A DNA stretch of 64,000 bases. Source: Cherax quadricarinatus (taxonomy: Eukaryota; Arthropoda; Malacostraca; Decapoda; Parastacidae). Position numbers and translations under genes: made by a program. The stretch is from NCBI RefSeq assembly GCF_038502225.1, contig NC_091325.1:31553107-31617106 (forward strand), given 5' to 3'. Below the pieces are notes generated by a model. It was given only the letters and a program-made list of their open reading frames with translations, did not search any database and was not told where the DNA came from. Shown here in pieces: positions 8,279 to 64,000 of this stretch; position 1 is the first letter of the stretch; each line of letters starts with the position of its first letter.

Positions 8279-8720
8279 GAACATTAAAATGGTATAAAAT
8301 ACCGACAGGTTGTTAGGTAAGACACATATGCAACAGTTAGGTATCTTTATTATGAAACGTTTCGCCTACACAGTAGGCTTCATCAGTCAAGTACAGAAAA
8401 GTTGATAGAAGCAGAAGATACTTGAAGACGATGTAATCAGTCCATCACCCTTAAAGTTCTGAGGTGGTCAGTCCCTCAGTCTGGAGAAGAGCATTGTTCC
8501 ATAGTATGAAACAATATTGTTTCATACTATGGAACAATGCTCTTCTCCAGACTGAGGGACTGACCACCTCAGAACTTTAAGGGTGATGGACTGATTACAT
8601 CGTCTTCAAGTATCTTCTGCTTCTATCAATTTTTCTGTACTTGACTGAAGAAGCCTACTGTGTAGGCGAAACGTTTCATAATAAAGATACCTAACTGTTG
8701 CATATGTGTCTTACCTAACA
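8279..8720. mobile_element. Snapback element S1 with hammerhead-like cores and TSD
   Basis: A 442-bp insertion in CR1-B ORF2, flanked by an 11-bp direct repeat GGGGAGAAATC (8268-8278 and 8721-8731), which is read as a target-site duplication. It has a one-sided leader (8279-8310: GAACATTAAAATGG, then a GGTAT/ATACC mini-hairpin) and then two 205-bp arms, 8311-8515 and 8516-8720. These are near-perfect reverse complements meeting at ACAATATTGT. Each arm carries a hammerhead-like core (8359-8386 minus, 8645-8672 plus) followed by an AATAAA. It is probably a non-autonomous Penelope-like terminal unit (pLTR) retrotransposed as a fold-back. Confidence 0.85.
8645..8672 (+). ncRNA. Hammerhead-ribozyme-like core (S1 right arm)
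   Basis: The order is CTGAAGA, A, GCCTAC-TGT-GTAGGC (6-bp stem II), GAAAC. This fits the conserved hammerhead core CUGANGA / stem II / GAAA. The same core is inverted at 8359-8386. I could not find obvious helices I and III in cis, so activity would need a minimal or dimeric form. Confidence 0.6.
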
Positions 8721-19042: not shown

Positions 19043-19581
19043 GAATAGTTAGTGGTATGGGTTTTTGCGGGAAAACTGTGAAGTCGCAGGGTAGTAACAT
19101 GAGTACTAGGAGAACTAGTAATAGGCAAAATGAGGAGGATATTGGAAAGCCAGTGGCACTAATTGACAATGACAGTAATACGTTTAGTGGAATAACAGAA
19201 AGGAGCAGGAAGGGTAAAGAGATAGGAGGGTCATTAAATATTTATTACACAAATAGTCGCAGTGCTAGGAATAAGATGGACGAGTTGAGACTAGTTGCTA
19301 GTGCAGGTAACATAGATGTATTTGCCATTACTGAGACGTGGTTTAATTCAAAAAGTCGGGACATGCCTGCAGAATGTCACATTCAGGGTTTTAAATTGTT
19401 CCAAGTAGATAGAAGTATCGGGAAGGGGGGTGGGGTGGCATTGTATGTCCGAGATCGCTTGAACTGTGGAAAAAGACACTTATGTACAGTTCAGGACATT
19501 TATTAAAGGAAACGTTTCACCACGAGTGGCTTCTTCAGTCCTAATACAGAGAAAACTAAGAAAACACACATATATATAGTG

Positions 19582-20018
19582 TTGTTAGGTAAGACACATA
19601 TGCAACAGTTAGGTATCTTTATAATGAAACGTTTCGCCTACACAGTAGGCTTCTTCAGTCAAGTACAGAAAAGTTGATAGAAGCAGAAGATACTTGAAGA
19701 CGATGTAATCAGTCCATCACCCTTAAAGTTTTGAGGTGGTCAGTCCCTCAGTCTGGAGAAGAGCATTGTTCCATAGTATGAAACAATGGAAACTATGGAA
19801 CAATGCTCTTCTCCAGACTGAGGGACTGACCACCTCAAAACTTTAAGGGTGATGGACTGATTACATCGTCTTCAAGTATCTTCTGCTTCTATCAACTTTT
19901 CTGTACTTGACTGAAGAAGCCTACTGTGTAGGCGGAACGTTTCATAATAAAGATACCTAACTGTTGCATATGTGTCTTACCTAACAACCTGTCGGTATTT
20001 TATACCATTTTAATGTTC
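19582..20018. mobile_element. Snapback element S3-inner nested in S3-outer, 12-bp TSD
   Basis: An S1-family fold-back inserted into the left arm of S3-outer, with ATATATATAGTG at 19570-19581 and 20019-20030. Cores lie at 19631-19658 (minus) and 19911-19938 (plus; GGAAC instead of GAAAC, a likely inactivating change). The terminal leader with the GGTAT/ATACC hairpin is on the right, opposite to S1, so it inserted in the opposite sense. Confidence 0.87.
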
Positions 20019-20488
20019 ATATATATAGTGGTGGGAGTCAGGTGAGGTGAAGCGTGGGTAGAGGTGGAAGTAGTAGTAGTAGTAGTAATGGAACTAAGGA
20101 GGTGAGGTTAGAGAGGGACCTGTTGGCATCAAGTAACACCAGTTCCCAGGATGGGTAATATCCTCTTGCTTAGTAATTTGAAATACTGTAACTACCGGAT
20201 TTCTGCTTTATAGTGTTACTGACAGAAATTAGTGCAGCTTCAATGCATTTTCTCCGTCTTAAGTCGTCTTAAGAAGACGGTAGTTACAGCATTTCAAAAT
20301 TACTAAGCAAGAGGATATTACCCATCCTGGGAACTGGTGTTACTTGATGCCAACAGGTCCCTCTCTAACCTCACCTCCTTAGTTCCATTACTACTACTAC
20401 TACTACTTCCACCTCTACCCACGCTTCACCTCACCTGACTCCCACCACTATATATATGTGTGTTTTCTTAGTTTTCTCTGTATTAGGA

Positions 20489-20513
20489 CTGAAGAAGCCA
20501 CTCGTGGCGAAAC
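20489..20513 (+). ncRNA. Hammerhead-like core (S3-outer)
   Basis: CTGAAGA, A, GCCAC-TC-GTGGC, GAAAC. The stem is 5 bp with a 2-nt loop, versus 6 bp with a 3-nt loop in S1, so the paired bases change together while the unpaired core is constant. Confidence 0.6.
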
Positions 20514-21754
20514 GTTTCCTTTAACAAATGTCCTGAACTGTACATAAGTGTCTTTTTCCACATCTTGTCGGTATCACCATACCATTTCCTCATCGCTTGA
20601 ACTGTTGCATAAAAACGGGTATTAAGTCTGAAGTAACACATACAGAGTCTGTTTGGATAGAATTTTCAGAGGGACATGAAAAATTAATTTTAGGTGTGAT
20701 ATACCGTCCCCCAAATTTTGATAGGGACCAGGGGAGACTACTATGGGAGGAAATTGTTAGGGCCACAAGGCACGATAATGTAGTAATTCTAGGAGACTTT
20801 AACTTTAGTCATATTGATTGGAATTTCTTGACTGGGAATTTAGAATCATACGATTTCTTAGAAGTAGTTCAGGATTGTTTTTTGAAGCAGTTTGTGACAG
20901 AACCTACAAGGGGTAATAACCTGCTTGACTTAGTTCTGGCAAACAATGAATCCCTTGTTAATAATTTAGAAGTTTCAGAGGAACTGGGTGCTAGCGACCA
21001 CAAATCAATTACATGTAGAATTGAATGGAAGTATGATAGTTGGGATAACTCAGTAACAGTCCCAAATTTTCGCTTAACAGATTACGATGGGCTTAGAGAA
21101 CACTTATCAACTGTTGACTGGGGTAACGAAGAGAGCTATCAATATGACAGTTTTCTGAACACAATACATGCTGCTCAAAGAACGTTTATCCCTTATAAGG
21201 AAATTAGATCAAATAGAAATGACCCAAAATGGATGAATAATAGGCTGAAATATCTACTAGGGCATAAGAAAGGAATTTATAGGCGTATCAAAAGAGGCGA
21301 GGGTCATCTTATGAATCAGTATATTGACATTAAGAGGGACATTAAAAAGGGGATAAGAAAAGCTAAAAGGGACTATGAAATTAAAGTTGCTAGGGATTCT
21401 AAAACTAACCCAAAAAGTTTTTTCCAGGTCTATAGAACAAAAGTCAGAGATAAGATAGGTCCCCTTAAAAATAACTATGGGCATCTTGCTGACAAAGAGA
21501 ATGAAATGTGCTCGATTTTAAATAATTATTTTCTCTCGGTTTTTACACAGGAAGACACTCATAATATTCCGGTAATTAATTTTTATAGTGGATCAGAAGA
21601 AGATAAATTATGTAACATCACAGTCACTAGTGAAATGGTTGTGAAGCAGATAGACAGACTGAAGCAAAATAAGTCACCGGGTCCTGATGAGGTTTTTTCA
21701 AGGGTTCTAAAGGAATGCAAAATGGAAGTCTGTGAACCATTAACTAATATTTTT

Positions 21755-22231: not shown

Positions 22232-23374
22232 ATGCTGTCGAATCGTGTGAAAATCAAGCCTGTGAATGGTGCAATAAATGACTCCTCGAAGTTAGCTTTA
22301 GCTACCGTCGTTAGGACCTGCCTGCAGGTCAAATTTACGGCAATCCACTCTCTGAAAGACTCCTTCATTGTCGTCTGCACAGATGACACGGAAGCACTAA
22401 AACTAATGGACGACTCTTCAATCAGGACCCTACAAACACAACAATTCACTCTATCCCCGTCTCCATTCTTGAAGTCGAAACGTTCGGTCTTTGTGAAAAG
22501 ACTTGACAATATCGTCACCTCTCTCTCTACTGAAGCACTGAAGACATCTATTGAGGAACAAAACACCTGGGCCTCGGTAGACAGCATCTCAAAGATCCCC
22601 AACGCCACATCAATGCTAAAGATTACATTCTCAGACATCTCCATGGCTGCCCAAGCTCTCTCTGACGGTCTGGCCATCTCATATTACCACATTCACCCAA
22701 GTCATATAGAACTAGAACGTTTCACATACATCCCCCACTGCTGGACCTGCTACTCCTATAATCACACCACCAAGGACTGCCCCATCAAGAATAAGAAGTT
22801 TTGTTCAAAATGTGGGAATGATGGACACGATTTCAGATCCTGCACCATTACTACAACACCAACATGTCTTAACTGCAAGGGTAATCATCATACCCTTGCA
22901 GCTAAGTGCCCACTCAGGAAAGAAATCATATTGAAGAAAACTAAAGTTCTGAAGAAAACCTCCAATTCACCGACATATGCTGCAATAACCAAACCACAAA
23001 CCGACGCCATCAAGACTCTACACGCTAATCTACAGGCACCATCGCCCAGCAACTCCCTCTCTCCACTCCCCGACGGTGCTCCTTCCAAGGTGCTGTACTG
23101 CATGGTGTATGCACACCTTGCAAACGCAGCAAGCCCCGGCACTTTCAACACCACTATTAACGAACTATTCCGTCTGAACAACATGCCTGCCTTCAATTTT
23201 CCGGAATCCACACCTTCAGAAGACATCCTCAAGATCCTTCCCAACGTCCTGAACTTTACTGCACCTACAGACCTGTCTCCTGCCCAAGCAACTGCTCCTG
23301 TAACTTCTATAACCACTTCCACCGCTGACAACGTTGACCAAGATACCCTTGTGTTGCAGTGTCTGACAGAATGA
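22232..23374 (+). CDS. ORF1/gag-like protein with three CCHC zinc knuckles
   Basis: A 380-codon open frame from ATG 22232 (MLSNRVKIKPVNGAIND). The first ~160 residues resemble the RRM-like region of non-LTR ORF1 proteins (weak, by pattern only). The centre has three nucleic-acid-binding knuckles: CWTCYSYNHTTKDCP, CSKCGNDGHDFRSC and CLNCKGNHHTLAAKCP. A basic stretch (KEIILKKTKVLKKTSN) and a Ser/Pro-rich tail follow. In its family this protein would package element RNA in an RNP. No ORF2 follows. The stop lies at the junction with the S5 insertion (23373), so the real C-terminus may be lost. Codon usage is more GC-rich than the CR1 ORFs, which points to a different element (I/jockey-type). Confidence 0.75.
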   Translation: MLSNRVKIKPVNGAINDSSKLALATVVRTCLQVKFTAIHSLKDSFIVVCTDDTEALKLMDDSSIRTLQTQQFTLSPSPFLKSKRSVFVKRLDNIVTSLSTEALKTSIEEQNTWASVDSISKIPNATSMLKITFSDISMAAQALSDGLAISYYHIHPSHIELERFTYIPHCWTCYSYNHTTKDCPIKNKKFCSKCGNDGHDFRSCTITTTPTCLNCKGNHHTLAAKCPLRKEIILKKTKVLKKTSNSPTYAAITKPQTDAIKTLHANLQAPSPSNSLSPLPDGAPSKVLYCMVYAHLANAASPGTFNTTINELFRLNNMPAFNFPESTPSEDILKILPNVLNFTAPTDLSPAQATAPVTSITTSTADNVDQDTLVLQCLTE

Positions 23375-23914
23375 ACATTAAAATGGTATGAAATACCGAC
23401 AGATTGTTAGGTAAGACACATATGCAACAGTTAGGTATCTTTATTTCGAAACGTTTCGCCTACACAGTAGGCTTCTTCAGTCGAGTACAGAAAGGTTGAT
23501 AGAAGCAGAAGATACTTGAAGACGATGTAATCAGTCCATCACCCTTAAAGTTTTGAGGTGGTCAGTCCCTCAGGGTATCTTGGTACAGACCACTTCGACA
23601 ACCTCTACTAGTGAGAACGGCTGGGTTTGTGAAGGACCTGCCCTCCCAAAGCAACCTACGTCTCACCTCCTGGCACTATATAAAGGCCCCATTCTGTCAC
23701 TTCAACTTCGTATTGTTTCAGACAACGGAACAATGCTCTTCTCCAGACTGAGGGACTGACCACCTCAAAACTTTAAGGGTGATGGACTGATTACATCGTC
23801 TTCAAGTATCTTCTGCTTCTATCAACCTTTCTGTACTCGACTGAAGAAGCCTACTGTGTAGGCGAAAAGTTTCGAAATAAAGATACCTAACTGTTGCATA
23901 TGTGTCTTACCTAA
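23373..23914. mobile_element. Snapback element S5, asymmetric, with TATA-box segment
   Basis: An S1-family fold-back with cores at 23453-23480 (minus) and 23841-23868 (plus, with GAAAA for GAAAC). The arms are unequal: after CCCTCAG the right strand carries about 170 extra bases (23575-23745) absent from the left arm. They include CTATATAAAGGC (23676-23687), then TTCGTATTGTTTCAGAC. This extra segment looks like the full promoter end of the parent unit. No clear TSD: the left flank is the gag ORF and the right flank is a CR1 tail. Confidence 0.8.
23676..23687 (+). promoter_or_regulatory. TATA box of the S1-family terminal unit
   Basis: CTATATAAAGGC lies about 25-35 bp upstream of the point (TTCGTATTGTTTC) at or near which the other S1-family copies turn back. 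This fits a pol II start at or near the arm tip. It is inferred from spacing only. Confidence 0.5.
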
Positions 23915-23990
23915 CAATGAGTGGGAGGGGTTGGATTTGAGAGGGACTTGCACATCGGAGCTTGTTTCTTGGGTGGCATTGAAAATTGGG
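23915..23990 (+). mobile_element. CR1 3' UTR fragment (tail subfamily D)
   Basis: ATGAGTGGGAGGGGTTGGAT and the following GACTTGCACATCGGAGC are the plus-strand version of the 3' UTR seen inverted at about 6590-6680. It is fused without a gap to CR1-B endonuclease codons at 23998, so the methionine at 23921 that opens this frame is in UTR sequence and is not a real start. Confidence 0.75.
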
Positions 23991-26947: not shown

Positions 26948-27349
26948 GTTAGGTAAGACACATATGCAACAGTTAGGTATCTTTATTTTGAAACGTTTCG
27001 CCTACACAGTAGGCTTCTTCAGTCAAGTACAGAAAAGTTGATAGAAGCAGAAGATACTTGAAGACGATGTAATCAGTCCATCACCCTTAAAGTTTTGAGG
27101 TGGTCAGTCCCTCAGTCTGGAGAAGAGCATTGTTCCTCTTCTCCAGACTGAGAGACTGACCACCTCAAAACTTTAAGGGTGATGGACTGATTACATCGTC
27201 TTCAAGTATCTTCTGCTTCTATCAACTTTTCTGTACTTGACTGAAGAAGCCTACTGTGTAGGCGAAACGTTTCAAAATAAAGATACCTAACTGTTGCATA
27301 TGTGTCTTACCTAACAACCTGTCGGTATTTTATACCATTTTAATGTTCA
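26948..27349. mobile_element. Snapback element S6 with 13-bp TSD
   Basis: An S1-family fold-back flanked by ATTTGAGGCAGTT (26935-26947 and 27350-27362). Cores are at 26995-27022 (minus) and 27241-27268 (plus), both with intact CTGAAGA, 6-bp stem II and GAAAC. The arm tip is shorter than in S1: the turn is at GTTCCTCTTC and lacks the ATAGTATGAAAC segment. The leader with the mini-hairpin is on the right. Confidence 0.88.
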
Positions 27350-29734: not shown

Positions 29735-29897
29735 GTTCACATTTTCATATTCATCTTTGGTTTTACACAATTTCTGAAATTATCATTACCCAGAGTTACT
29801 CCATGACAGTTACTATAAAGATTCTTAATATCAGAGCATAAGTCAATATATCCATACTCATTATTAATCATTTTTAAACCCATACCTCTAACTAATC

Positions 29898-30471: not shown

Positions 30472-30479
30472 CGAGAATG

Positions 30480-33275: not shown

Positions 33276-33411
33276 TTGGTGTTGGGGGGTGCGGGAGTTG
33301 TTTCTTGAGTAGCTTTAGGTAGATGTCGTTTTGATAAGGACCTGCCTCGTATGGGCCAGTAGGCCTTCTGCAGTGTTCCTACATTCTTATGTTCTTATGT
33401 TCTTATGATTT
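33276..33411 (+). other. CR1-C 3' UTR and octamer tail
   Basis: Contains GTATGGGCCAGTAGGCCTTC and ends in three TTCTTATG octamers directly against Penelope-like coding sequence. Short 3' microsatellites instead of poly(A) are typical of the CR1 clade and serve as the RT recognition end. Confidence 0.85.
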
Positions 33412-33412
33412 A

Positions 33413-34576: not shown

Positions 34577-34809
34577 ATAGCTTGGGGGTGAGTTTTGCAA
34601 AGGACCTATCCAAGTTGGGTCGGCGCGCGTCACGTGTTTAACCGTTGTGGGATCTGATAGTGAGGTGTTGGCCGACCCCTTATATAGCTTCCTTGGATGC
34701 TTCACTTTCATAGAGAGTTGTACAGCACACTCAGGAAGACTCGTATTACGACAATCCATTGACACACTCTCAGTTCACGGAGTTCACTACCTTTTCAGAA
34801 GATAGGCAC

Positions 34810-35445
34810 ATGGCTTCTGCCGAAAAGAAGAGGTCACGATGCTCCATGAACACGACGGAGGACTCAGATTTGGAAATGTGGGGCGAAATTCTAGCGAAGA
34901 AGTTGCGAGAGGAAGAGGAAGATCCTGTTCACATTGTAGCAGATCTGACAGTCCCAACCATGGAGCCAGCGACAATAGAAACAGGTGCGGAAATAAACAC
35001 CGCACCCCACGAAAACCAAGAAGCACCGTCCGTCCAAGGAGCAGGCAAACCAGCTCAACCGACCTGGCAAATTCAAGGTGAAGTCTTATGGGGACCACAG
35101 AACCCACTATGGGGTTGTTTCATACCTGGAATCACGACACAACCTGAAGTTCAAGATATGGTTCAACTTGAGGGGAGAACCAATATTGACTCCTCTCAAC
35201 AAGGAAATGTATACCACCTTGAAGAGAGTCATGGAGACAGATCGCTCATTCACCCTGGAGGAACTGGACTCTCGGCAGAAGATCACCAAGGGTGTAGTGA
35301 TGCGATACCCGCTGATGATGCCCATCGAGGCAGTAGCAGCTCATCCCAGTGTGGTGTCAGCTCAACGTCTCAAGGCAAAGACGGCAGGCAACGCACCGAC
35401 CCGACAGGTTCTCATTCAGCATGTAGGACCACTGCCACGATGTCA
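34810..35445 (+). pseudogene. Gag-like ORF1 N-terminus, two frameshifts
   Basis: The ATG at 34810 (MASAEKKRSRCSMNTTEDSD) opens an acidic N-terminus. Near 35030-35070 the frame moves to KFKVKSYGDHRTHYGVVSYL, then GEPILTPLNKEMYTTLKRVM, then SRQKITKGVVMRYPLMMPIE. This is the conserved core found before zinc knuckles in I-group ORF1 proteins. It shifts again near 35440 into the frame of the zinc knuckles. Confidence 0.75.
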
Positions 35446-37835
35446 GGACCTTCACAGCAGAACCAGTTCGCTGTTTCAAGTGTCAGCGTTATGGACACCT
35501 GGGTGCACTATGTCCGAACAGAGTAATCTGCGGTGTCTGCAGCCAGCACCACCCTACCGAGGAATGCATCACCAAGCTGAAAAATGCATCGCCACCCACT
35601 CCACAATGCCCGAACTGCAGGCAGAAACACCATGCCTGGAATCCTCGATGCCCCGAGAGGCTCGCCAGAATTCAAGAAGTCTGGAAGACGCCAAAAACTC
35701 GGCAACAGGCTACGACGGATCATCAAACGATGGGTGCAGAGAACCCTACCATACCGCAGATCTCTCAGCAGCTAAACCAAGTCAATGCCCAGGAATTCCC
35801 AACCCTAGAAGCCTCAACCAGGCGTCAAGGTCAAGAACCTCCTGCACCCCTACCTCAACGAAGAAACAGAAACAAGAGGAACAGGAGGCGTCAACAGGGT
35901 GCATCGGGTCAATGCGATCAGCAGGCTGCACTAAACGAGCCCCCACAGGCCATAGCACGACAACGCAGGCACTCCTTACCCGGCACAGGCGCTTTGCAGA
36001 CTCAACTGGCACCTCACCAGCAGATCCCGGCTACTCAACCTGGTATACAGCAACAGACCACGGTGCATACAATAAAGAAATCCAACCCTCAGCAGTCCCT
36101 ACAGACCACAGCAGCCCAGATAATATCCACTGTTTCGAACCCATCTCCAAAGCAGGCCCTCACCAGGGAGGATCTCGTAGCACTCATCAAGGTGTTCACG
36201 GATCTTATTTGCAACACAATCAACTCCACGGAACAACAGAGCGCATTCCGGCAGATGGTCAGTACTCTCCTGAGAGTGTGCTTTCTGACCGAAGAGGAGA
36301 CAGTGGATGCCATGAATTTGCAGGTTCTCAGAGCGGGCAGGACTTTTCAGAAACAGGCCGAGTATGTCAGGTCACGTGCTCTACTCAGACTCAACGCCAT
36401 GAGAGCCATGACGAGGCACCGTGCAGGGGCAAGCAAAGATGTACTTCGCTTGTACTATATACAAGCTATACGCTCGCTCATTGACTACAGTGCACCGGCT
36501 TTAGCTCATCTCTTCCCGCAGAGCAGGCAAAGGGTGGAGGTCGTACAAAACCAGGCGATAAGAACTATGCTTGGTGCCCCCATCTGGACCAACACAGTAT
36601 GTCTCAAATCTGAGGCCCGGCTTCCTTCCTTGGCTGACAGAGTAAGATACATAAACGCCTGCAAAGTGGCCACGATTCTGCACCGGCAGCAAGGTACCCC
36701 ACTAAGGAGACGGATATTAACAACCATGTCACAAGATCCCACACTCTTCACGGACTACTCCTGGATTCGTTCGTTTTGTGCTGCTGGGCGGAAGCTGCTG
36801 CCTGTACAGCTGCTCTGTGAGAAGAGTTGTGACCTTCCTGTTGCTGGGTACCATCCACCACCTCCCTGGCGCCCAGATCCAGCCGATGTTTTCATCATGC
36901 AGCTGCCCATCTCTAAGTGTCTCTGCAGTCGAGACACCCTCAGCAATCATGCTGAGACAAGCATGGCACTGGCAGAGGGAGGCACATGTGCAGTGTATTT
37001 CACAGATGGTTCTGTCGACCCTGATAGGAAGAGAGCAGCAGCTGGACTGTACCACAATGGTCACACACAAGGCTGGCGACTCCCTGACCACTGCACGATC
37101 CTTCAAGCTGAGCTGGTGGCGATTCAGCAGGCATTGTCACATGCCCTACGACATCGACTCCGACCTGTCATACATGTTGATTCCACCTCTGCAATCAATG
37201 CCCTCTCCCATCCTCAACCACAGGATAATGTTCACCTCATCACATCGATCCTGAGCATAATGACAGCCTTAGAAGTTCAGGGTAATAGATCGACATTGAA
37301 CTGGATCCCCAGCCATGCTGGCATCCGGGGAAATGAGGCGGCAGATGATGCAGCCAAGGCAGCAACAGACTATCCACATGTTGGGATTACTGTCCCAATC
37401 AGCGTACGACAGACCAAACTGGTGGCTGCCAGAGCCACGAAACTTATGGGGGAGGTCTTAGGTGATACCCCATCTCAACAGTGGTACCGAGCAGCGACTC
37501 AGGGAGAACCCCCTCCATATGATAGAAGCTGGTCCAGAGCGCAGTGTACCGCCATCCATCGGCTTCGTTTGGGCTTTCCCACAGCCAAGATGATGGTAGA
37601 CAAGGCTGAGGAGGAGATGTGCCAGTACTGTCAGCACGTTGTCCAGCGGCCCCTAACACACTATCTTCTAGAGTGCGAAGCTACTGAGACACTCCGCAGG
37701 CAACTAGGGGTGATATTCCCTCCCGAAGAGGACCCAGAGATGACTGCGGCCATGCTAGTGTACCATGGGGTCAACGAACCAGACAAGCTGTTACCTGTAA
37801 TAATGACATATCCTCCTCCTCGCTATTGTCCATAG
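35436..37835 (+). CDS. Fused gag zinc knuckles + RT C-terminus + RNase H
   Basis: About 800 codons open. Zinc knuckles: RCFKCQRYGHLGALCP, CGVCSQHHPTEEC and CPNCRQKHHAWNPRCP. A basic, Arg/Gln-rich region follows (PQRRNRNKRNRRRQQ), then LTREDLVALIKVFTDLICNT. About codon 300 the sequence changes to an RT C-terminus (ALLRLNAMRAMTRHRAGASK, SLIDYSAPALAHLF) and RNase H: YFTDGSVD (Asp), ILQAELVAIQQA (Glu), IHVDSTSAINAL (Asp), NWIPSHAGIRGNEAADDAAK (His, Asp). The end has a Cys-His cluster (CQYCQHVVQRPLTHYLLEC). Endonuclease and RT palm are missing, so autonomous movement is not possible. The in-frame fusion is noteworthy. Confidence 0.85.
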   Translation, partial: HDVRTFTAEPVRCFKCQRYGHLGALCPNRVICGVCSQHHPTEECITKLKNASPPTPQCPNCRQKHHAWNPRCPERLARIQEVWKTPKTRQQATTDHQTMGAENPTIPQISQQLNQVNAQEFPTLEASTRRQGQEPPAPLPQRRNRNKRNRRRQQGASGQCDQQAALNEPPQAIARQRRHSLPGTGALQTQLAPHQQIPATQPGIQQQTTVHTIKKSNPQQSLQTTAAQIISTVSNPSPKQALTREDLVALIKVFTDLICNTINSTEQQSAFRQMVSTLLRVCFLTEEETVDAMNLQVLRAGRTFQKQAEYVRSRALLRLNAMRAMTRHRAGASKDVLRLYYIQAIRSLIDYSAPALAHLFPQSRQRVEVVQNQAIRTMLGAPIWTNTVCLKSEARLPSLADRVRYINACKVATILHRQQGTPLRRRILTTMSQDPTLFTDYSWIRSFCAAGRKLLPVQLLCEKSCDLPVAGYHPPPPWRPDPADVFIMQLPISKCLCSRDTLSNHAETSMALAEGGTCAVYFTDGSVDPDRKRAAAGLYHNGHTQGWRLPDHCTILQAELVAIQQALSHALRHRLRPVIHVDSTSAINALSHPQPQDNVHLITSILSIMTALEVQGNRSTLNWIPSHAGIRGNEAADDAAKAATDYPHVGITVPISVRQTKLVAARATKLMGEVLGDTPSQQWYRAATQGEPPPYDRSWSRAQCTAIHRLRLGFPTAKMMVDKAEEEMCQYCQHVVQRPLTHYLLECEATETLRRQLGVIFPPEEDPEMTAAMLVYHGVNEPDKLLPVIMTYPPPRYCP

Positions 37836-44395: not shown

Positions 44396-44629
44396 AGTAT
44401 ATAAGTCACTTCTCCGCACATGTGTAGGACTTTTCTCAAGATTTCTGGCTCCTCAAGGGGGGTTCCTTGACGCTGGTGAAGGGCTTTTGATCTATGGAAT
44501 TGGATCTGTGCTCCAGTTCCCTGAACTAAGCCTGAATACCTTCCAACCCCTCAACCCGACAGGCGCTGTATAATCCTATGTGTTTAGCGCTTCCCCATGA
44601 TTATAATAAAAACATAATCAATATTTATG

Positions 44630-44795
44630 GACTGAGCACATAACCTCCAGGCTGAGGGACTGATTATCTCAAAGTCATCCTCATCTTCAGACGCTCTTGT
44701 CTATAGTGCGCTTAAGAATCCACTGGCTGACGAAACGTTTCCGTAATAAAGATTCCAAAGTGCAGTATATTCGTCTCATTCTCTTGCCGGATAAG
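44630..44795 (+). mobile_element. Diverged hammerhead-unit fragment
   Basis: ATTTATGGACTGAGCACATA, then GAGGGACTGATTATCTC, then ...TTAAGAATCCACTGGCTGAC-GAAACGTTTCCGTAATAAAG. The block order matches the 371-bp units (GGACTGA, GAGGGACTGATTACCTC, core, AATAAA). Stem II has decayed. An old single copy. Confidence 0.7.
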
Positions 44796-44894
44796 ACATG
44801 ACTCCCAGAACCATCACTAGATACAACAAATATATACTTTTGCTACAGCTCAAAGTATGACTTACTAAATATTACTGGAATTATCGGCAAAATA

Positions 44895-46222: not shown

Positions 46223-48262
46223 GATGGGCACGGTGGAGGTGGAGGTGGAGGTGGAGGTGAAGGTGAAGGTGGAGGTGGTGGTGGAGGTTCAGGTGGAGGT
46301 GGACGTGGAAGTGGAGGTGGATGTGGAGGTGGAGGTGGAAGTTCAAGTGGAGGTGGAGGTGGAGGTTCAGGTGGAGGTGGAGGTGGAGGTTCAGGTGGAG
46401 GTGGAGGTGGAGGTGGTGGTGGAGGTTCAGGTGGAGGTGGAGGTGAAGGTTCAGGTGGTGGTGGAGGTTCAGGTGGAGGTGGAGGTTCAGGTGGAGGTGG
46501 AGGTGGAGGTGGAGGTGAAAGTGGTGGTGGAGGTTCAGGTGGAGGTGGAGGTGGAGGTTCAGGTGGTGGTGGAGGTGGAGGTGGAAGTGGAGGTTGAGGT
46601 TCAGGTGGAGGTGGACGTGGAAGTGGAGGTGAATGTGGAGGTGGAGGTGGAAGTTCAAGTGGAGGTGGAGGTGGAGGTGGAGGTGTAGGTTCAGGTGGAG
46701 GTGGAGGTGGTGGTGGAGGTGGAGGTGGTGGTGGAGGTTCAGGTGGAGGTGGAGGTAGAGGTGCAAGTGGAGGTTCAGGTGGAGGTGTAGGTTCAGGTGG
46801 AGGTGGAGGTTCAGGTGAAGGTGGAGGTAGAGGTGTAAGTGGAGGTTGAGGTGGAAGTTCAAGTGGAGGTGGAGGTGGAGGTGGAGGTTCAGGTGGAGGT
46901 GGAGGTGGAGGTTCAGGTGGAGGTGGAGGTGGAGGTGGAGGTGGAGGTTCAGGTGGAGGTGGAGGTTCAGGTGGTGGTGGAGGTTCAGGTGGAGGTGGAG
47001 GTTCAGGTGGAGGTGGAGGTGGAGGTGAAAGTGGTGGTGGAGGTTCAGGTGGAGGTGGAGGTGGAGGTTCAGGTGGTGGTGGAGGTTCAGGTGGAGGTGG
47101 AGGTGCAGGTGGAGGTGGAGGTGGAGGTGGAGGTGAAAGTGGTGGTGGAGGTTCAGGTGGAGGTGGAGGTGGAGGTTCAGGTGGTGGTGGAGGTGGAGGT
47201 GGAGGTGGAGGTTGAGGTTCAGGTGGAGGTGGACGTGGAAGTGGAGGTGAATGTGGAGGTGGAGGTGGAAGTTCAAGTGGAGGTGGAGGTGGAGGTGGAG
47301 GTGGAGGTTCAGGTGGAGGTTCAGGTGGAGGTGGAGGTGGAGGTGGTGGTGGAGGTTCAGGTGGAGGTGGAGGTAGAGGTGCAAGTGGAGGTTCAGGTTG
47401 AGGTGGAGGTTCAGGTGGAGGTGGAGGTTCAGGTGGAGGTGGAGGTAGAGGTGTAAGTGGAGGTTGAGGTGGAGGTGGAGGTGGAGGTTGAGGTGGAGGT
47501 GGAGGTGGAGGTTCAGGTGGAGGTGGAGGTGGAGGTTCAGGTGGAGGTGGAGGTGGAGGTGGAGGTTCAGGTGGAGGTGGAGGTGGAGGTGGAAATGGAG
47601 GTGGAGGTGGAGGTGGAGGTGGAGGTTGAGGTGGAGGTGGAGGTTGAGGTTGAGGTGGAGATGGAGGTGGAGGTGGAGGTGGAGGTGGAGGTTCAGGTGG
47701 AGGTGGAGGTGGAGGTGGAGGTGGAGGTTGAGGTGGAGGTGGAGGTGGAGGTTGAGGTTGAGGTGGAGGTGGAGGTTGAGGTTGAGGCTGAGGTTGAGGT
47801 GGAGGTGGAGGTGGAGGTGGAGGTGGAGGTTGATGTGGACGTGGACGTGGACGTGGACGTGGACGTGGATGCGGAAGTGGACGTGGACGTGGAAGTGGAC
47901 GTGGACGTGGAAGTGGGCGTGGACGTGGAAGTGGACGTGGACGTGGAAGTGGACGTGGACGTGGACGTGGACGTGGAAGTGGACGTGGACGTGGAAGTGG
48001 ACGTGGACGTGGAAGTGGGCGTGGACGTGGACGTGGAAGTGGACGTGGACGTGGAAGTGGAGGTGGGCGTGGAAGTGGACGTGGACGTGGAAGTGGACGT
48101 GGACGTGGAAGTGGACGTGGACGTGGAAGTGGGCGTGGACGTGGAAGTGGACGTGGACGTGGAAGTGGACATGGGCGTGGAAGTGGACGTGGACGTGGAA
48201 GTGGACGTGGAAGTGGACGTGGAAGTGGACGTGGAAGTGGACGTGGGCGTGAAGGTGGAATG
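46223..48262. repeat. (GGAGGT)n hexamer array passing into GGACGT/GGAAGT
   Basis: About 2 kb of GGAGGT-type hexamers with interspersed GGTTCA variants up to about 47830. It then changes abruptly to GGACGTGGACGTGGAAGT units (47832-48252). The plus strand is strongly G-rich with very few C until the CpG-containing block. All frames stay open (684 codons of His/Leu/Val/Asn/Phe on minus) because the hexamer contains no stops. I do not call a protein. Confidence 0.97.
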
Positions 48263-53526: not shown

Positions 53527-54089
53527 TTTGCCTAGTAGGTTGTTTCTAAGAAGAGCGAGAGGCAACCAGGTTAGTGTCCTATTTTACAGATTGGGGTCGT
53601 TTGGACAGCAGACTGGAGATGGCCCATCTTGAAACGTTTTGGCAATCCTAAAATCGACACATTGTAGAGGAGGAAGCTGGAATCATGGTCAAGGTCGTGT
53701 GAAGGTTAGACGTATCAAAAGCTTCAGTCGTAACCTCAGTACCAGAGGTGGGCAAGAGAGGGCCGAAAAAGGGCTGGATGATGCAGCAAGGTCTTGCGAA
53801 AATGCCGCTGGAGAAGGAAGGGGTCTAGGAGGAGGAGGGATTTTATGGGTATGGGTGTGCATGACATAGTTTCTTTTTTTCTTTCAAAAAAGGAGAGTTG
53901 GTGGTGGGGGAATACCTCCAAGGAGAAATGAGAAAAGAGAAAAGAGAAAAAGAGAAAAGAGAGATCGAAGTGCAGATGCTACATGGAGCTCATGCCTTAC
54001 CTTGCCCTTCACGCTAGTAAGCCGGCAGTCCAGGATAACAACTTTATATCCACTGAGCCACTTCGGTAAACAAAAGAGAAAGTTGGGAG
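53527..54089. other. Unassigned region
   Basis: Contains an A/G-rich stretch (53935-53965, AGAGAAAAGAGAAAAAGAG). No gene recognised. Confidence 0.4.
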
Positions 54090-54965
54090 CCCACTACAAG
54101 CATACCCATTTAGGCCACCAGTTTCTGGAGCCAACAGGCAGCCTTCAGAGATACACTGGCTACCTTAAGAACACCCAAAACCGCCCTCTGGAACTCTGCA
54201 GGGCAGATCAGCACCTGCATATACGATCCAGATTCCATGTCAAACACAACTATCGAGAGCCTCAGTGGAATGGGACAGACAACGCTTCTCGTTCCTTGAT
54301 CCAAGAGCTATAATTTTGGAGGGAAAAATCCCAAAAAGCCAAATACGGGGTTGTATTCAAGAGAAAAAATTTGCTCAGTCAAATTACCATTCACGAGAGA
54401 AATAGTACAAAACAGGATCGTGGTAGAGAAACCACAGTAAAAGGACTCACAAAATTACCAAAATAAGAAAGGAATGGGAGCAATTGAGAGAGAGCACACA
54501 AAGATGCCAGAGGAAGGAAGGAGAAACAGAGCACATATTGACAGGCAGAGAAGCTCAGGCTGAGGGTAACCAACAAATACAACCACCCAGAGCACCCTCC
54601 CCCTAAACTTCTAGTCCCCCCCTTCCAATCAAGCACAAAAATCTGAAACAAACCACACTCCACACCCGAAGTTTTCCCCATCCACAAACAAAAATACCAC
54701 TCTTACAGTAATCTCTATCAAAATCCTATCACACAACCCCAACCCACACCAACCCCTTTCACCCCCGAGAATACAGTATTGAAAAAGAAGCTGAAGGTAT
54801 GGTACACCAACGCAGATGGATTAACAAATAAGAGTGAAAAGTGGCAAGAACAAATCATGGAGACATCCCCACGCATCATAGCAATCACATGGAGATAACA
54901 AGAGATGCAATCTTCCAACTGGCTATCAGATCCTGTGGAAACACAAAGGGAACAGACCTGGAGGA

Positions 54966-57900
54966 TAAATTAGACACATGTGCAACTCTTGGGTATCTTT
55001 ATTGAGGAAACGTTTCGCCACACAGTGGCTTCATCAGTCCATACAAAGGAGAATCTTGAAGAATAGGACGAGAATGAGGTAATCAGTCCCTCAACCTTGA
55101 GTCGATGTGGTCAGTCCATCAATCTTGAATAGAATACGGCATACGTGCTGAGAAGGAGCTTATAAACCGTTGGCAGGAGAGGTGAAGCAGTCAGAGGCAG
55201 TGTAACACTTATTCAATGTTGAAGAAGGTCGTGCCCAAGAATTAGGCAAGCGAAGAATTCCCAAGTATTAAGATCCCAAGAAGATGCAGTGTCTGACAGG
55301 TTTGTAGATGAATGGTTCAGAGAACCGACATGTTGATAAATTAGACACATGTGCAACTCTTGGGTATCTTTATTGAGGAAACGTTTCGCCACACAGTGGC
55401 TTCATCAGTCCATACAAAGGAGAATCTTGAAGAATAGGAGAAGAATGAGGTAATCAGTCCCTCAACCTTGAGTCGATGTGGTCAGTCCATCAATCTTGAA
55501 TAGAATACGGCATACGTGCTGAGAAGGAGCTTATAAACCGTTGGCAGGAGAGGTGAAGCAGTCAGAGGCAGTGTAACACTTATTCAATGTTGAAGTAGGT
55601 CGTGCCCAAGAATTAGGCAAGCGAAGAATTCCCAAGTATTAAGATCCCAAGAAGATGCAGTGTCTGACAGGTTTGTAGATGAATGGTTCAGAGAACCGAC
55701 ATGTTGATAAATTAGACACATGTGCAACTCTTGGGTATCTTTATTGAGGAAACGTTTCGCCACACAGTGGCTTCATCAGTCCATACAAAGGAGAATCTTG
55801 AAGAATAGGAGGAGAATGAGGTAATCAGTCCCTCAACCTTGAGTCGATGTGGTCAGTCCATCAATCTTGAATAGAATACGGCATACGTGCTGAGAAGGAG
55901 CTTATAAACCGTTGGCAGGAGAGGTGAAGCAGTCAGAGGCAGTGTAACACTTATTCAATGTTGAAGTAGGTCGTGCCCAAGAATTAGGCAAGCGAAGAAT
56001 TCCCAAGTATTAAGATCCCAAGAAGATGCAGTGTCTGACAGGTTTCTAGATGAATGGTTCAGAGAACCGACATGTTGATAAATTAGACACATGTGCAACT
56101 CTTGGGTATCTTTATTGAGGAAACGTTTCGCCACACAGTGGCTTCATCAGTCCATACAAAGGAGAATCTTGAAGAATAGGAGGAGAATGAGGTAATCAGT
56201 CCCTCAACCTTGAGTCGATGTGGTCAGTCCATCAATCTTGAATAGAATACGGCATACGTGCTGAGAAGGAGCTTATAAACCGTTGGCAGGAGAGGTGAAG
56301 CAGTCAGAGGCAGTGTAACACTTATTCAATGTTGAAGTAGGTCGTGCCCAAGAATTAGGCAAGCGAAGAATTCCCAGGTATTAAGATCCCAAGAAGATGC
56401 AGTGTCTGACAGGTTTGTAGATGAATGGTTCAGAGAACCGACATGTTGATAAATTAGACACATGTGCAACTCTTGGGTATCTTTATTGAGGAAACGTTTC
56501 GCCACACAGTGGCTTCATCAGTCCATACAAAGGAGAATCTTGAAGAATAGGAGGAGAATGAGGTAATCAGTCCCTCAACCTTGAGTCGATGTGGTCAGTC
56601 CATCAATCTTGAATAGAATACGGCATACGTGCTGAGAAGGAGCTTATAAACCGTTGGCAGGAGAGGTGAAGCAGTCAGAGGCAGTGTAACACTTATTCAA
56701 TGTTGAAGTAGGTCGTGCCCAAGAATTAGGCAAGCGAAGAATTCCCAAGTATTAAGATCCCAAGAAGATGCAGTGTCTGACAGGTTTCTAGATGAATGGT
56801 TCAGAGAACCGACATGTTGATAAATTAGACACATATGCAACTCTTGGGTATCTTTATTGAGGAAACGTTTCGCCACACAGTGGCTTCATCAGTCCATACA
56901 AAGGAGAATCTTGAACCATTCATCTACAAACCTGTCAGACACTGCATCTTCTTGGGATCTTAATACTTGGGAATTCTTCGCTTGCCTAATTCTTGGGCAC
57001 GACCTACTTCAACATTGAATAAGTGTTACACTGCCTCTGACTGCTTCACCTCTCCTGCCAACGGTTTATAAGCTCCTTCTCAGCACGTATGCCGTATTCT
57101 ATTCAAGATTGATGGACTGACCACATCGACTCAAGGTTGAGGAACTGATTACCTCATTCTCCTCCTATTCTTCAAGATTCTCCTTTGTATGGACTGATGA
57201 AGCCACTGTGTGGCGAAACGTTTCCTCAATAAAGATACCCAAGAGTTGCACATGTGTCTAATTTATCAACATGTCGGTTCTCTGAACCATTCATCTAGAA
57301 ACCTGTCAGACACTGCATCTTCTTGGGATCTTAATACTTGGGAATTCTTCGCTTGCCTAATTCTTGGGCACGACCTACTTCAACATTGAATAAGTGTTAC
57401 ACTGCCTCTGACTGCTTCACCTCTCCTGCCAACGGTTTATAAGCTCCTTCTCAGCACGTATGCCGTATTCTATTCAAGATTGATGGACTGACCACATCGA
57501 CTCAAGGTTGAGGGACTGATTACCTCATTCTCCTCCTATTCTTTAAGATTCTCCTTTGTATGGACTGATGAAGCCACTGTGTGGCGAAACGTTTCCTCAA
57601 TAAAGATACCCAAGAGTTGCACATGTGTCTAATTTATCAACATGTCGGTTCTCTGAACCATTCATCTACAAACCTGTCAGACACTGCATCTTCTTGGGAT
57701 CTTAATACCTGGGAATTCTTCGCTTGCCTAATTCTTGGGCACGACCTACTTCAACATTGAATAAGTGTTACACTGCCTCTGACTGCTTCACCTCTCCTGC
57801 CAACGGTTTATAAGCTCCTTCTCAGCACGTATGCCGTATTCTATTCAAGATTGATGGACTGACCACATCGACTCAAGGTTGAGGGACTGATTACCTCATT

Positions 57901-58409
57901 CTCCTCCTATTCTTCAAGATTCTCCTTTGTATGGACTGATGAAGCCACTGTGTGGCGAAACGTTTCCTCAATAAAGATACCCAAGAGTTGCACATGTGTC
58001 TAATTTATCAACATGTCGGTTCTCTGAACCATTCATCTACAAACCTGTCAGACACTGCATCTTCTTGGGATCTTAATACTTGGGAATTCTTCGCTTGCCT
58101 AATTCTTGGGCACGACCTACTTCAACATTGAATAAGTGTTACACTGCCTCTGACTGCTTCACCTCTCCTGCCAACGGTTTATAAGCTCCTTCTCAGCACG
58201 TATGCCGTATTCTATTCAAGATTGATGGACTGACCACATCGACTCAAGGTTGAGGGACTGATTACCTCATTCTCCTCCTATTCTTCAAGATTCTCCTTTG
58301 TATGGACTGATGAAGCCACTGTGTGGCGAAACGTTTCCTCAATAAAGATACCCAAGAGTTGCACATGTGTCTAATTTATCAACATGTCGGTTCTCTGAAC
58401 CATTCATCT
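54966..58409. mobile_element. Palindromic multimer of 371-bp hammerhead-like units, single insertion
   Basis: Flanked by ACAGACCTGGAGGA (54952-54965 and 58410-58423). The left half has five full 371-bp units in minus orientation (unit marks GATAAATTAG at 54964, 55335, 55706, 56077, 56448 and 56819) plus ~95 bp. At about 56912 the orientation flips, and about four units run in plus orientation to 58409. Units are nearly identical (differences of one or two bases). Cores: minus at 55012-55037, 55383-55408, 55754-55779, 56125-56150, 56496-56521 and 56867-56892; plus at 57194-57219, 57565-57590, 57936-57961 and 58307-58332. Each unit has TTTATAAG (TATA-like) about 130 bp upstream of its core and AATAAA just after it. 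Confidence 0.88.
57194..57219 (+). ncRNA. Hammerhead-like core (371-bp unit)
   Basis: CTGATGA, A, GCCAC-TGT-GTGGC, GAAAC. The variable fourth position of CUGANGA is U here and A in the S1 family, as the consensus permits. Repeated every 371 bp in both halves of the palindrome. Confidence 0.6.
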
Positions 58410-58638
58410 ACAGACCTGGAGGAGGAGATGCACTACTCATCAGAAATCATTGGAATTTCGAGGAAATGAGAGGAAGTGAGAGAGAGAAAGCAGATGACTA
58501 CATAAGAACATACGAAAGCAGGAACACTGCAGGCCTACTGGCCCATGCAAGGCAGGTCCAATTCTCCTACAAGCTTAAGCCAACGCCTTAACCTAGTCAG
58601 ATCAGTCACATTCACTTAAGGGAGGAGCACAGCGTGTC

Positions 58639-61093
58639 CTAGCAGCACAAGCTAGTCAGGTCCAACTCACACCCACTCATGTATTTATCCAACCTATTTT
58701 TAAAACTACACAACGCCTTAGATTCTATGACTGTACTCGGGACTTTGTTCCGCTCATCCACAACTCGGTTACCAAACCAGTGCTTTCCTGTATCTTTCTT
58801 GAATCGGGATTTTTCAAACTTAAAACCATTGCTGAGATTCCTGACTAGGCTACATATTATTAGCACGCTATTTACATCCCCTTTATTAATTCCTGTTTTT
58901 CATTTACTAACCTCAATCATATCCCTTCTAATTCTACGCCTTTCTAGAGTGCACATTCAGGACCCTCAGTCTATCCTCATAGGGAAGATGTTTGATACAG
59001 GTATCAATTTTGTAGTCCTCCTCTGTACGTTTTTCAGAGAATTTATATCCATTCTGTAATACGGTGACCAGAACTGTGCAGCGTAATCTAAATGAGGCCT
59101 AACGAGAGATATATAGAGTTGAAGAACAACCTGAGTGAGGACTTCTATTATTTGCACTTCTTGATATGAAACCAAGGATTCTGTTAGCTTTACTGCGGAT
59201 ACTTAAGCAATGTTGTCTTGGTTTCAGATTACTGCTAACCAGAACTCCTAAATCCTCTTTGCAGTCAGTAATATTAAGATCTACATTATTTAGTTTATAT
59301 GTGGCATGGTCATTTTCTTGTCCAACATTTAGAACTTTGCATTTTTCTATAATAAACTGCATCTGCCACTTATTTGACCACTGCATCAGTCTATTCAAAT
59401 CGTCTTGGAGTGCTCTAATGTCCTCAGTAGAAAGAAGTGGACGGCCTATTTTGGTGTCATCAGCAAATTTGCTTATGTCACAGTTTATTCCCTCGTCTAT
59501 GTCATTTATGTAAACCGTGCAGAGATTCATTAATCAATTTATGCCTTTCAAGATGGCTACGAATTGCCTCGGCGATTATTGATTCTCTAAATTTTCCCAC
59601 TATGGAGGTAAGGCTTATTGGTTAATAGTTCGAAGCTAATGACCTGTCACTTGCTTTGTAAATAGGTCATACATTTGCCATTTTTCACTTGTCTTTCACT
59701 ATGCCAGTTTGTAGTGATAAGTTGAAAAGATTAGCCAAAGGTTAGCTAAGTTCCTCTTTACATTCCTTTATAACCCTTGCAAACAGTTTATCAGAGCCTG
59801 GGGATTTGTTAGGTTTTAATTTCTCTATTTGTCTGAAGACCAAGTCACTAGTTACCCCAATCGTGATAGTTTATTATCGTCCTGTTCTACATAATTTATT
59901 ATTTCTGGAATTTCACTAGTATTTTCCTGAGTAAAAACTGAGAGGAAGTAAGTGTTGAAAAGATCACACATTTGCTTATCACTGTCAGTGATCTAACCTG
60001 AGTTACTCTTAAGTGGGCCTATCTTGTTCCTGATCTTACTTCAGTATACCTGAGAGAATCCTGTTGGGTTAGTCTTCTAATTCCTTGCGACTTTAACCTC
60101 ATAATCTCTTTTTGCTTTTCTTAATCCTTTTTTCTGTTTCTCTCTTTAATTGAATATATTGATTTCATAATTGTCCATCCCCTCTTTGGCATGCCTATAT
60201 ATGCCTCTCTTTTTACCAATGAGATGTTTAATCTATTTTTTTATCCATTTGGGATCATTTTTGTTAGATTTAATTTCCATACTCAGAACAAAAGTTGTCT
60301 GGGCAGCTAGAACTATGCTCTGAAATACGTCATATTGGCAATCAACTCCACCTACCTGACCCATAGTCAGGTCATCCCAATCTAGCTCACCCATGAAATC
60401 AGCCAAGCGGAAGTCTGGGACAGAGACTTAATTGCAGTTATCTGGGTGGTTTGTGATCATTTTCCCCAAGCTCATCATTAACCTCAAGATTATTAATTAG
60501 TGATTCTTTGTTGGCAAGAACCAAGTCAAGCAGGTTGTTTCCTCTAGTTGGTTCTGTCCCAAACTGTTTCAAAAAGCAGTCTTGAACCGTATCAAGATAG
60601 TCACTAGACTCAAGATTTCCTCTCACATTCTTCCAATCAATTTGTCTGAAGTTAATGTCTCCCATCAACACAATATTTTGATATTTAGAAGCCTTATGAA
60701 TTTCGTCCCATAACAGCTTACTGCACTCCCAATCGAGGTTTGGGGGCCTGTAAATTACACCCATAATTATTTTTTCACACCCTCGAGAAACTGTAGCTAA
60801 ACAGATTCTGTGCCTGATGTTTCTAATCTTATATCTTGTCTAACACAACAATTTAAATTATGTCTGACATACACAGCCACTCCACCTCCCTTCCTGTTGA
60901 CTTTATCAGTGTGGCATAGTTTATAATCCTGTATGTTGCATTCAGAAGGCATTCCTCTATCTTTCAAGTTGAGCGAGGTCTCTGTTATAGCAATAATATC
61001 TATATTATGTGTACTTGCAAGTAATCTTAGCTCATATATCTTATTTCTTAGACTCCTACTATTTGTATAGTAAACCTTAAGGGAGCTAGTCAC
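58639..61093 (-). pseudogene. CR1-B copy 3 ORF2, decayed
   Basis: Pieces in order: 61093-60797 (VYYTNSRSLRNKIYELRLLA, IIAITETSLNL with Glu, GGGVAVYVRHNLNC), 60764-60438 (GVIYRPPNLD, IVLMGDINFRQIDW where GDFN reads GDIN, ENDHKPP), a stop-rich stretch 60400-59540 (linker and early RT), 59530-59099 (FADDTKIGRPL, GVLVSSNLKPRQHC), 59175-58966 (LVRPHLDYAAQFWSPYYRMD), 58866-58639 (the CR1 C-terminal block, VVDERNKVPSTVI). The order is intact, so decay is by point changes and small indels. Confidence 0.85.
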
Positions 61094-63179: not shown

Positions 63180-63234
63180 TAGTTGCTCAGTATTTGATGA
63201 AAACATTCATTGTTGATATGGTTTGTTTAATTAA
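63180..63234. other. Short unique spacer
   Basis: Nothing recognised between the two tandem arrays. Confidence 0.4.
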
Positions 63235-64000
63235 GTGTGATGTAGTCAAGCGAGGCTGGACGGAACGGGTGTCTGCCTCCCCCTGGTTACTATACAGTGT
63301 GATGCAGTCAGACGAGGCTGTGTGGGATGGGGGTCTGCCTCCCCCTGGTTACTATACAGTGTGATGTAGTCAAGCGAGGCTGGACGGAACGGGGGTCTGC
63401 CTCCCCCTGGTTACTATACAGAGTGATGTAGTCAAGCGAGGCTGAGCGGGATGGGGGTCTGCCTCCCCCTGGTTACTATACAGTGTGATGTAGTCAAGCA
63501 AGGCTGGGCGGGACGGGAGTCTGCCTCCCCCTGGTTACTATACAGTGTGATGTAGTCAAGCGAGGCTGGGCGGGACGGGGGTCTGCCTCTCCCTGGTTAC
63601 TATACAGTGTGATGCAGTCAGGGAAGGCTGGTCTGCCTCCCCATGGTTACTATACAGTGCGATGTAGTCAAGCGAGGCTGGGCGGGACGGGGGTCTGCCT
63701 CTCCCTGGTTACTATACAGTGTGATGCAGTCAGGGGAGGCTGGGCGGGACGGGGGTCTGCCTCCCCATGGTTACTATACAGTGTGATGTAGTCAAGCGAG
63801 GCTGGGCGGGACGGGGGTCTTCCTACCCCTGGTTACTATACAGTGTGATGTAGTCAGGCGAGGCTGGGCAGGACGGGGGTCTGCTTCCCCCTGGTTACTA
63901 TACAGGGCGATGTAGTCAGGCGAGGCTGGGTGGGATTGAGGTCTGCCTCCCCCTTGTTACTATACAGTGTGATGTAGTCAGGTGAGGCTGGGCAGGACGG
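63235..64000. repeat. 62-bp minisatellite, continuing past the window
   Basis: About 12 copies of a 62-bp unit containing GTGTGATGTAGTCAAGCGAG and CTGCCTCCCCCTGGTTACTA. The period was measured from GTGTGATG at 63235, 63297 and 63359. A shorter unit occurs at about 63607-63655. The right edge is outside the window. Confidence 0.95.

Follow-up and report, generated by a model that had tools for sequence, protein, structure and literature searches.

The window analysed here, a stretch of 64,000 nucleotides from Cherax quadricarinatus (contig NC_091325.1, positions 31,553,107 to 31,617,106), carries at 54966-58409 an inverted array of repeat units with a hammerhead-like ribozyme motif, in which 5.26 units of 371 bp on the minus strand meet 4.03 units on the plus strand, the whole lying inside a single 14-bp target duplication (Table 1). 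Tandem Repeats Finder at period 371 delimits 5.3 units at 54964-56915 and 4.1 units at 56912-58418, with 99% matches in each, and the duplicated 14-mer, ACAGACCTGGAGGA, has two occurrences in the window, one at either edge of the array. When the array and one repeat copy are removed by script, a single continuous frame results (...YQILWKHKGNRPGGGDALLIRNHWNFEEM... / ...NRPGGGDALLIRNHW...), which would be that of a putative long interspersed element (LINE) endonuclease. A sequence-only reading of this DNA had described five-plus minus and about four plus units meeting at 56912, one direct repeat of 14 bp around the whole block, and an endonuclease frame restored on its removal; the unit counts, the repeat and the overlap of the arms at 56912-56915 agree with this description, as does the continuity of the frame, the endonuclease itself being assumed. 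The array is a single-event insertion of the kind made by Penelope-like elements (PLEs).

The 371-bp unit

A hammerhead-like core (CTGATGA...GAAAC), identified by eye, is present in each unit. In unit coordinates, CTGATGA lies at 279 and GAAACGTTTC at 300, and a TATA-like TTTATAAG is found near 150. The earlier description of the units as hammerhead-like thus holds for the core, but an Rfam scan of 54000-59500 left this core unmatched up to E=1. GAAAC runs straight into GTTTC without a helix III loop, a departure from the canonical type I hammerhead with its usual helices and loop contacts. Unit position 307, presumably the cleaved base by hammerhead numbering, would leave 26 nt between the cut and the A of the ATG at 282. 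The same ATG-to-cut distance is stated for PAc of Anolis (PMC11167929), and the minimal hammerheads of PLEs are described as missing the helix III loop (PMC7761336).

No stop-to-stop open reading frame (ORF) of at least 110 amino acids is listed between 54313 and 58643, and the frame that begins at the ATG inside the hammerhead reaches a stop after 11 codons. An identity as an autonomous PLE, which would call for an ORF with reverse transcriptase and GIY-YIG endonuclease, was considered and rejected. At 371 bp, in tandem, and with a core seen by eye though negative in Rfam, the unit conforms to the metazoan retrozymes, defined by tandem units of 150-450 bp with a type I hammerhead. It also has the properties of a non-autonomous, PLE-dependent element, namely two 3' start sites 30-40 nt apart (the tail), head-to-head inverted copies with a target duplication, and a tail homologous to that of a GIY-YIG PLE of the same genome. 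An exact scan of viral contigs for the core returned 0 matches, records of this genome possibly being excluded from that scan.

Two-armed copies elsewhere in the genome

A search of the assembly (3.95 Gb, 7334 contigs) with one unit as query gave 515 first-look candidates, the best 40 of which were scored, and 36 regions were fetched. Annotation at 95% identity or more resolved 40 clusters in the 36 fetched loci and the window, 30 of them two-armed and 10 single-armed. All 30 two-armed clusters are ordered minus-then-plus, such that the 5' heads meet inside and the 3' ends point outward. The same order recurs in all 11 two-armed clusters among at least 23 further clusters in the matches listed for a second query, of another subtype (best 40 of 1193 candidates scored; rows taken as listed rather than read as sequence), and these 11 carry a tailed end on exactly one side in nine cases and on neither side in two. 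Older relatives (<95%) in the fetched loci have opposite-strand neighbours within 600 bp in 10 minus-plus pairs and one plus-minus pair, the members of which lie 423 bp apart. Other large arms exist, with 5.1+7.2 and 6.3+2.8 units.

Further repeats were observed in two of the fetched loci. A relative diverged to about 73-76%, its period close to 400 bp, occupies L034:97-1926 in the order minus, minus, plus x4. At L038:2336-2368 a single-armed copy adjoins a different hammerhead-like repeat (GAGCGAAACGTTGCCACAATAAATGTCACATT), and no flanking duplication was found there.

Outer ends and target duplications

Outer ends cluster at two sites of the unit, either after TCTAATTTATC (the short, or S, site) or about 33 nt further on, after CCATTCATCTACA (the long, tailed, or T, site); 15 anchored ends lie at unit positions 348-353 and 18 at 381-386. 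A short end on one side is matched by a long end on the other in 26 of the 27 two-armed clusters in which both ends could be classified, the short end lying on the left in 13 and on the right in 13. If ends were chosen independently and at even odds, at least 26 discordant pairs in 27 would arise with a probability of about 2 in 10 million. Arm length shows no bias with respect to the short or long end over 26 loci (p=0.62).

A direct repeat of at least 11 bp flanks 21 of the 30 two-armed clusters; in a chance control, direct repeats of at least 9 bp appeared in 2 of 868 cross-locus end pairings, both of 13 bp and apparently between the TAC-microsatellite loci L046 and L048. The 18 duplications used for measurement (three of the 21, in local repeats, were dropped) are 11-14 bp long, and all but 3 of their 36 ends could be anchored. 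Target and RNA share 1-4 nt of identity at 31 of these 33 anchored ends, with a mean of 2.0 nt over 15 S ends and 1.8 over 18 T ends against a simple, unsimulated expectation of about 0.33. Such identity at both kinds of end is what priming of both target 3' ends on the RNA would produce.

Junctions between the arms

Junction positions differ among the 30 two-armed clusters. The overlap between arms was counted in 29 of them, L034 being omitted for a 76-bp piece below the identity cut that lies between its arms. Measured as BLAST overlap, against an expectation simulated as exact matches, it amounts to at least 2 nt at 18 of the 29 junctions (15% expected for random joins) and to at least 4 nt at 11 (1.7% expected); two further junctions overlap by 1 nt. 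The register of the heads was compared at 28 of the 30 junctions (without L021 and L034). Head positions are spread across the unit (Kolmogorov-Smirnov (KS) p=0.29), the difference in register between paired heads fits a uniform spread (KS p=0.79), and 6 of the 28 pairs lie within 20 nt in register versus 3.1 expected.

Two candidate regularities of the heads were tried and rejected. Arms stopping at ribozyme-cut 5' ends were not borne out, with 1 of 56 heads inside 303-312 against 1.5 expected, and the apparent sharing of one fixed head position by many arms was an artefact of query phase.

Variants shared by the two arms

In 12 of 27 two-armed loci a non-consensus base is common to both arms, compared with a mean of 0.9 and a maximum of 5 in 5000 random re-pairings (self-pairs skipped; L024, L025, L028 and L046, with two insertions each, left out). 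Nine shared changes in eight loci are private to their locus within the sample. These shared bases indicate that both arms derive from one source.

Variant tables were built from matches of at least 97%, and the per-unit view covers loci with at least three long units. Within the window array, C12G is found in minus-arm units 1 and 3 as well as a single plus unit, and each arm has one unit with T52C; the two changes are thus partial in both arms, and they occur in 0 of the 36 fetched loci. Mixed variants within an arm were also seen in L029, L034, L048 and L050. When the window arms are compared unit by unit, the best multi-unit offset leaves one mismatch in three unit pairs; this offset requires template 5' of the end of the minus arm, and folding back of that arm therefore cannot yield it. 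The two offsets that reasoning leaves open to a fold-back of the minus arm give 5 and 2 mismatches in 8 comparisons. The pattern of unit variants suggests as the source of the window array either a tandem of unlike units or several RNAs transcribed from the same tandem locus, and a single monomer circle would not fit. Later conversion between units could mimic the sharing seen in the window, an account less easily applied to short arms like the ones at L037, L039 and L043.

One arm changes subtype along its length: at L050:4746-5846 the 3'-most unit of the plus arm is of another subtype (C16G, T151A, no G148A) than the remaining units that cover these sites, as if the copying enzyme had switched template after starting.

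Autonomous PLEs of the genome

A Pfam GIY-YIG search of the assembly, in which the best 150 of 14,992 candidates were scored, places all 27 adjacent GIY-YIG pairs less than 10 kb apart in minus-plus order, and the paired matches in these palindromic PLE copies are spaced by 83 to 4519 bp. Short end pieces of three copies (C7, C19 and C15) were read by eye. C7 is long on the left and short on the right, with a 15-bp repeat; C19 is short on the left and long on the right; and C15 has a short right end by sequence and a long left end by listing. Each of the three copies with both ends placeable therefore has one short and one long end.

The 3' region of the PLEs resembles that of the unit (CACTGTGTGG..GAAACGTT..AATAAAG), and the tail of both takes a hairpin form, TGTCGGT-nn-loop-nn-ACCATT, with paired changes. 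Among 42 sequences a looser hairpin pattern has 12 distinct matches, eight of which keep five pairs (in TC/GA, TT/AA and AT/AT versions), and one shuffle per sequence gave 1 match in all. Predicted folding of the tail is -4.9 kcal/mol for the unit and -3.5 kcal/mol for the PLE.

The window itself holds a piece of a PLE gene with reverse transcriptase and GIY-YIG domains at 33338-34576 (+). No inverted pair of at least 25 bp was found around it within 32000-35600.

Further insertions and features of the window

Five further palindromic insertions, belonging to two other families (A and B), were recognised in the window from ends read by eye (Table 1). All five are ordered minus-plus and all five have one short and one long end, with a duplication of 11-14 bp in four.

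Table 1. Features of the inverted array and of the other palindromic insertions in the window.
Feature	Positions	Strand	Remarks
Left target site duplication copy, ACAGACCTGGAGGA	54952..54965		14 bp
Minus arm	54966..56915	-	116-nt head-truncated piece and five 371-bp units; tailless, ending outward at the short (S) site
Head-to-head junction	56912..56915		4-bp microhomology TGAA common to both arms
Plus arm	56912..58409	+	Four 371-bp units and 10 nt; tailed, ending outward at the long (T) site
Minimal hammerhead-like motif stretch, first plus-arm unit	57178..57245	+	CTGATGA at 57194, stem II CCACTGTGTGG, GAAACGTTTC; unmatched in Rfam
Short (S) RNA start site TCTAATTTATC, last plus unit	58370..58380	+	Minus arm ends at its own copy
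Hairpin GGTTC-TCT-GAACC in the tail	58389..58401	+	Between both start sites; kept with paired changes in related families
Right target site duplication copy, ACAGACCTGGAGGA	58410..58423		
Family A copy A1	8279..8719		Tailed minus arm on the left, tailless plus arm on the right; duplication AGGGGAGAAATC at 8267-8278 and 8720-8731
Family B insertion B1	19468..20591		Short minus end on the left, tailed plus end on the right; duplication ATCGCTTGAACTGT at 19454-19467 and 20592-20605
Family A copy A2, nested in left arm of B1	19582..20019		Short minus end on the left, tailed plus end on the right; duplication TATATATAGTG
Family A copy A3	23372..23917		Tailed minus end on the left, short plus end on the right; head of plus arm extends further; no duplication seen
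Family A copy A4	26948..27349		Short minus end on the left, tailed plus end on the right; duplication ATTTGAGGCAGTT at 26935-26947 and 27350-27362

LINE-type ORFs extend over 15708-33275 and 35427-37835, and A2, A3, A4 and B1 sit among them. Ten of the frames were submitted to Pfam, which recognised endonuclease, RVT_1 and RNase H domains in six. Hammerhead/AATAAA-like signatures occur on the plus strand at 44560-44830 (GAAACGTTTC..AATAAAG at 44732) and at 14750-14900 (CGAAACGTTTTCTAATAAA at 14797), both with no minus partner in motif scans. Long minisatellite arrays occupy 1-4600 (18 bp), 10977-11700 (37 bp), 46232-48259 (18/24 bp) and 63234-64000 (62 bp).

Mechanism and alternative explanations

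We posit that the array is very probably the insertion of a non-autonomous, PLE-dependent retroelement that was primed on both target strands and whose cDNAs were joined by microhomology. The architecture, the end rule, the duplications, the microhomologies and the shared source of the arms are observed in the copies; the enzyme, dual priming, the order of the steps and the form of the RNA are what we infer from them. The unit would supply two start sites around a hairpin, about 41-79 nt downstream of the presumed ribozyme cut, and the reverse transcriptase/GIY-YIG endonuclease of a PLE would cut the target in staggered fashion, giving rise to the 11-14 bp duplication. The two target 3' ends would then prime on RNA of a single tandem source, one of them using the short site and its partner the long (tail) site. 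From there each cDNA would extend in the direction of the RNA 5' end, over one unit or several, and halt at scattered places, after which the cDNA 3' ends would anneal, mostly via a few nucleotides of microhomology, and be filled in. The product would have tails outward, heads inward and one duplication. PLE protein has been reported to cleave and extend both strands in vitro, from two internal start sites bracketing the tail and with the ribozyme cut dispensable (PMC11167929). A bolder proposal, for and against which we find ourselves evenly balanced, is that PLE integration is an obligate paired reaction, in which two reverse transcriptase protomers, one per cut strand, start on either side of a conserved RNA hairpin, the tail hairpin enforces one start of each kind, and the cDNAs are sealed head to head.

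Several observations weigh against dual priming by a PLE enzyme as the origin of these copies. The sample was picked by similarity to one unit, and single-armed copies make up 10 of its 40 clusters and 12 of the 23 further clusters among the matches listed for the second query. The end rule is broken by L022, which has two long ends, and some ends could not be classified (one each in L031 and L034, both in L024). Nine of the 30 two-armed clusters have no flanking repeat that reaches 11 bp, local repeats surround 3 of the 21 that were found, and no duplication was seen for the PLE copy C19. At 8 of 29 junctions 1-21 unaligned bases separate the arms and one further junction is flush, while the excess of microhomology compares BLAST overlaps with simulated exact matches. 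The heads of A1, A2 and A4 are nearly symmetric, with 0, 14 and 8 nt between the arms, and fold-back alone would also fit these centres, though not the unequal ends of the same copies. Mobilisation of the unit by a PLE protein is a presumption drawn from its ends. Finally, no start-site difference between top and bottom strand was apparent in vitro (PMC11167929), so that the rule of one end of each kind is not predicted by that work; the near-strict pairing is a feature of genomic copies and was not seen there.

The sequence-only reading had favoured snapback reverse transcription, whereby a single cDNA, synthesised from a tandem RNA, folds back on itself before being copied; for the rotifer Penelope the preferred variant is self-priming on an antisense transcript (PMC3846280). 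Heads are central in all 30 two-armed clusters, as snapback would have them, those of A1, A2 and A4 are near-symmetric where the 5' region is itself palindromic, which recalls the palindromes described for Adineta Penelope (PMC3846280), and close register is found in the 6 of 28 head pairs noted above. However, snapback predicts identical outer ends, and these are unlike in 26 of 27 clusters of the 371-bp family and in all five other window insertions. Because the outer ends differ, head registers are random and unit variants are unmirrored, as in the mismatches left by the fold-back offsets in the window, we regard snapback as highly improbable for the 371-bp family, and the unequal ends also argue against antisense self-priming (PMC3846280). 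Misjoining of inverted repeats during assembly is scarcely credible: palindromes are difficult to assemble, but 30 two-armed clusters with differing junctions, 21 of them with a flanking direct repeat, and PLE genes of the same layout are not what such an artefact would leave.

Other alternatives concern how the arms became multimeric. Retrozymes have been proposed to form multimers by rolling reverse transcription of a monomeric circular RNA. Such a route, otherwise compatible with dual priming, would account for the absence of a gap at the presumed ribozyme cut in the units viewed, save one of 44 nt in L034, and for the homogeneity of many arms at common variable sites, and circles of about 170-400 nt are known from metazoan retrozymes (PMC7229834). 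Nevertheless, C12G and T52C are each present in some but not all units of both window arms, and arms are mixed in four other loci as well, so that a single monomer circle is insufficient unless copying jumped between RNAs or units were converted later; we consider this route fairly unlikely. Growth of a short insertion by unequal exchange or conversion is quite improbable. Unit number does differ among loci, and conversion could spread variants between units, but growth alone explains neither the opposite orientation nor the two different fixed ends, junctions vary from cluster to cluster, and many two-armed copies are short. Dual priming on RNA from one tandem source thus remains our preferred explanation. 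The independent palindromic multimers elsewhere in the genome, most of them with their own duplication, are the evidence that the sequence-only reading had itself asked for, and they uphold the earlier view that the array arrived in one event, already multimeric and two-armed, and its proposed Penelope connection is strengthened by the two-site ends and the palindromic GIY-YIG PLEs. The notion of a palindrome exceptional in size is not supported, given the other large arms listed above and PLE GIY-YIG matches up to 4.5 kb apart.

Relation to known systems and significance

In LINE-1 twin priming, two target ends prime on the RNA and produce an inversion with a microhomology junction and a target duplication. 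Such inversions arise there only occasionally, as a by-product, and have a poly-A end and a second site that is internal. Unlike this, the two-armed form described here is the commoner outcome in the sample, and both starts are fixed sites.

Among endonuclease-containing PLEs, the class of Adineta Penelope and Anolis PAc has head-to-head pseudo long terminal repeats, an optional tail of 31 bp or 30-40 bp at one inverted end, and a target duplication (PMC3846280). The 371-bp family is like these elements in its head-to-head copies, one-sided tail and target duplication (PMC3846280) and in the hammerhead motif, both strands being cleaved and extended in vitro in their case (PMC11167929). It differs in that the unit codes for nothing long, in that the arms are tandems of several units, and in the nearly strict pairing of one short with one long end, whereas the tail of endonuclease-containing PLEs is described as optional and in vitro as without strand difference (PMC3846280, PMC11167929). 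With metazoan non-LTR (long terminal repeat) retrozymes it shares tandem units of 150-450 bp, a type I-like hammerhead, duplications of more than 4 bp and a suspected PLE helper (PMC7229834). Its hammerhead, in contrast, is the minimal PLE form without helix III, and its arrays are two-armed; no mention of inverted arrays was found in the available part of the metazoan retrozyme account (PMC7229834).

The head-to-head structure, tail, duplication and minimal hammerheads of PLEs are thus already known, as are tandem retrozymes. Our analysis adds the finding that a non-autonomous PLE-dependent family commonly takes the form of two-armed arrays with several units, together with a near-strict end rule, a common source of both arms and a hairpin between the start sites. 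These additions were not found stated in the literature searched, which is weak evidence of absence as key older and subscription papers lie outside its coverage.

Second-strand synthesis and repair are described as steps of PLE integration yet to be validated (PMC11167929). Dozens of near-identical, independent and short, readable insertions fix the outcome of PLE integration as two arms with one end of each kind, one source and a microhomology centre, and make the question of how PLEs complete integration directly testable. Should pairing prove obligate, a separate step of second-strand priming would be unnecessary. The insertions also provide a simple annotation rule for inverted ribozyme arrays in large animal genomes.

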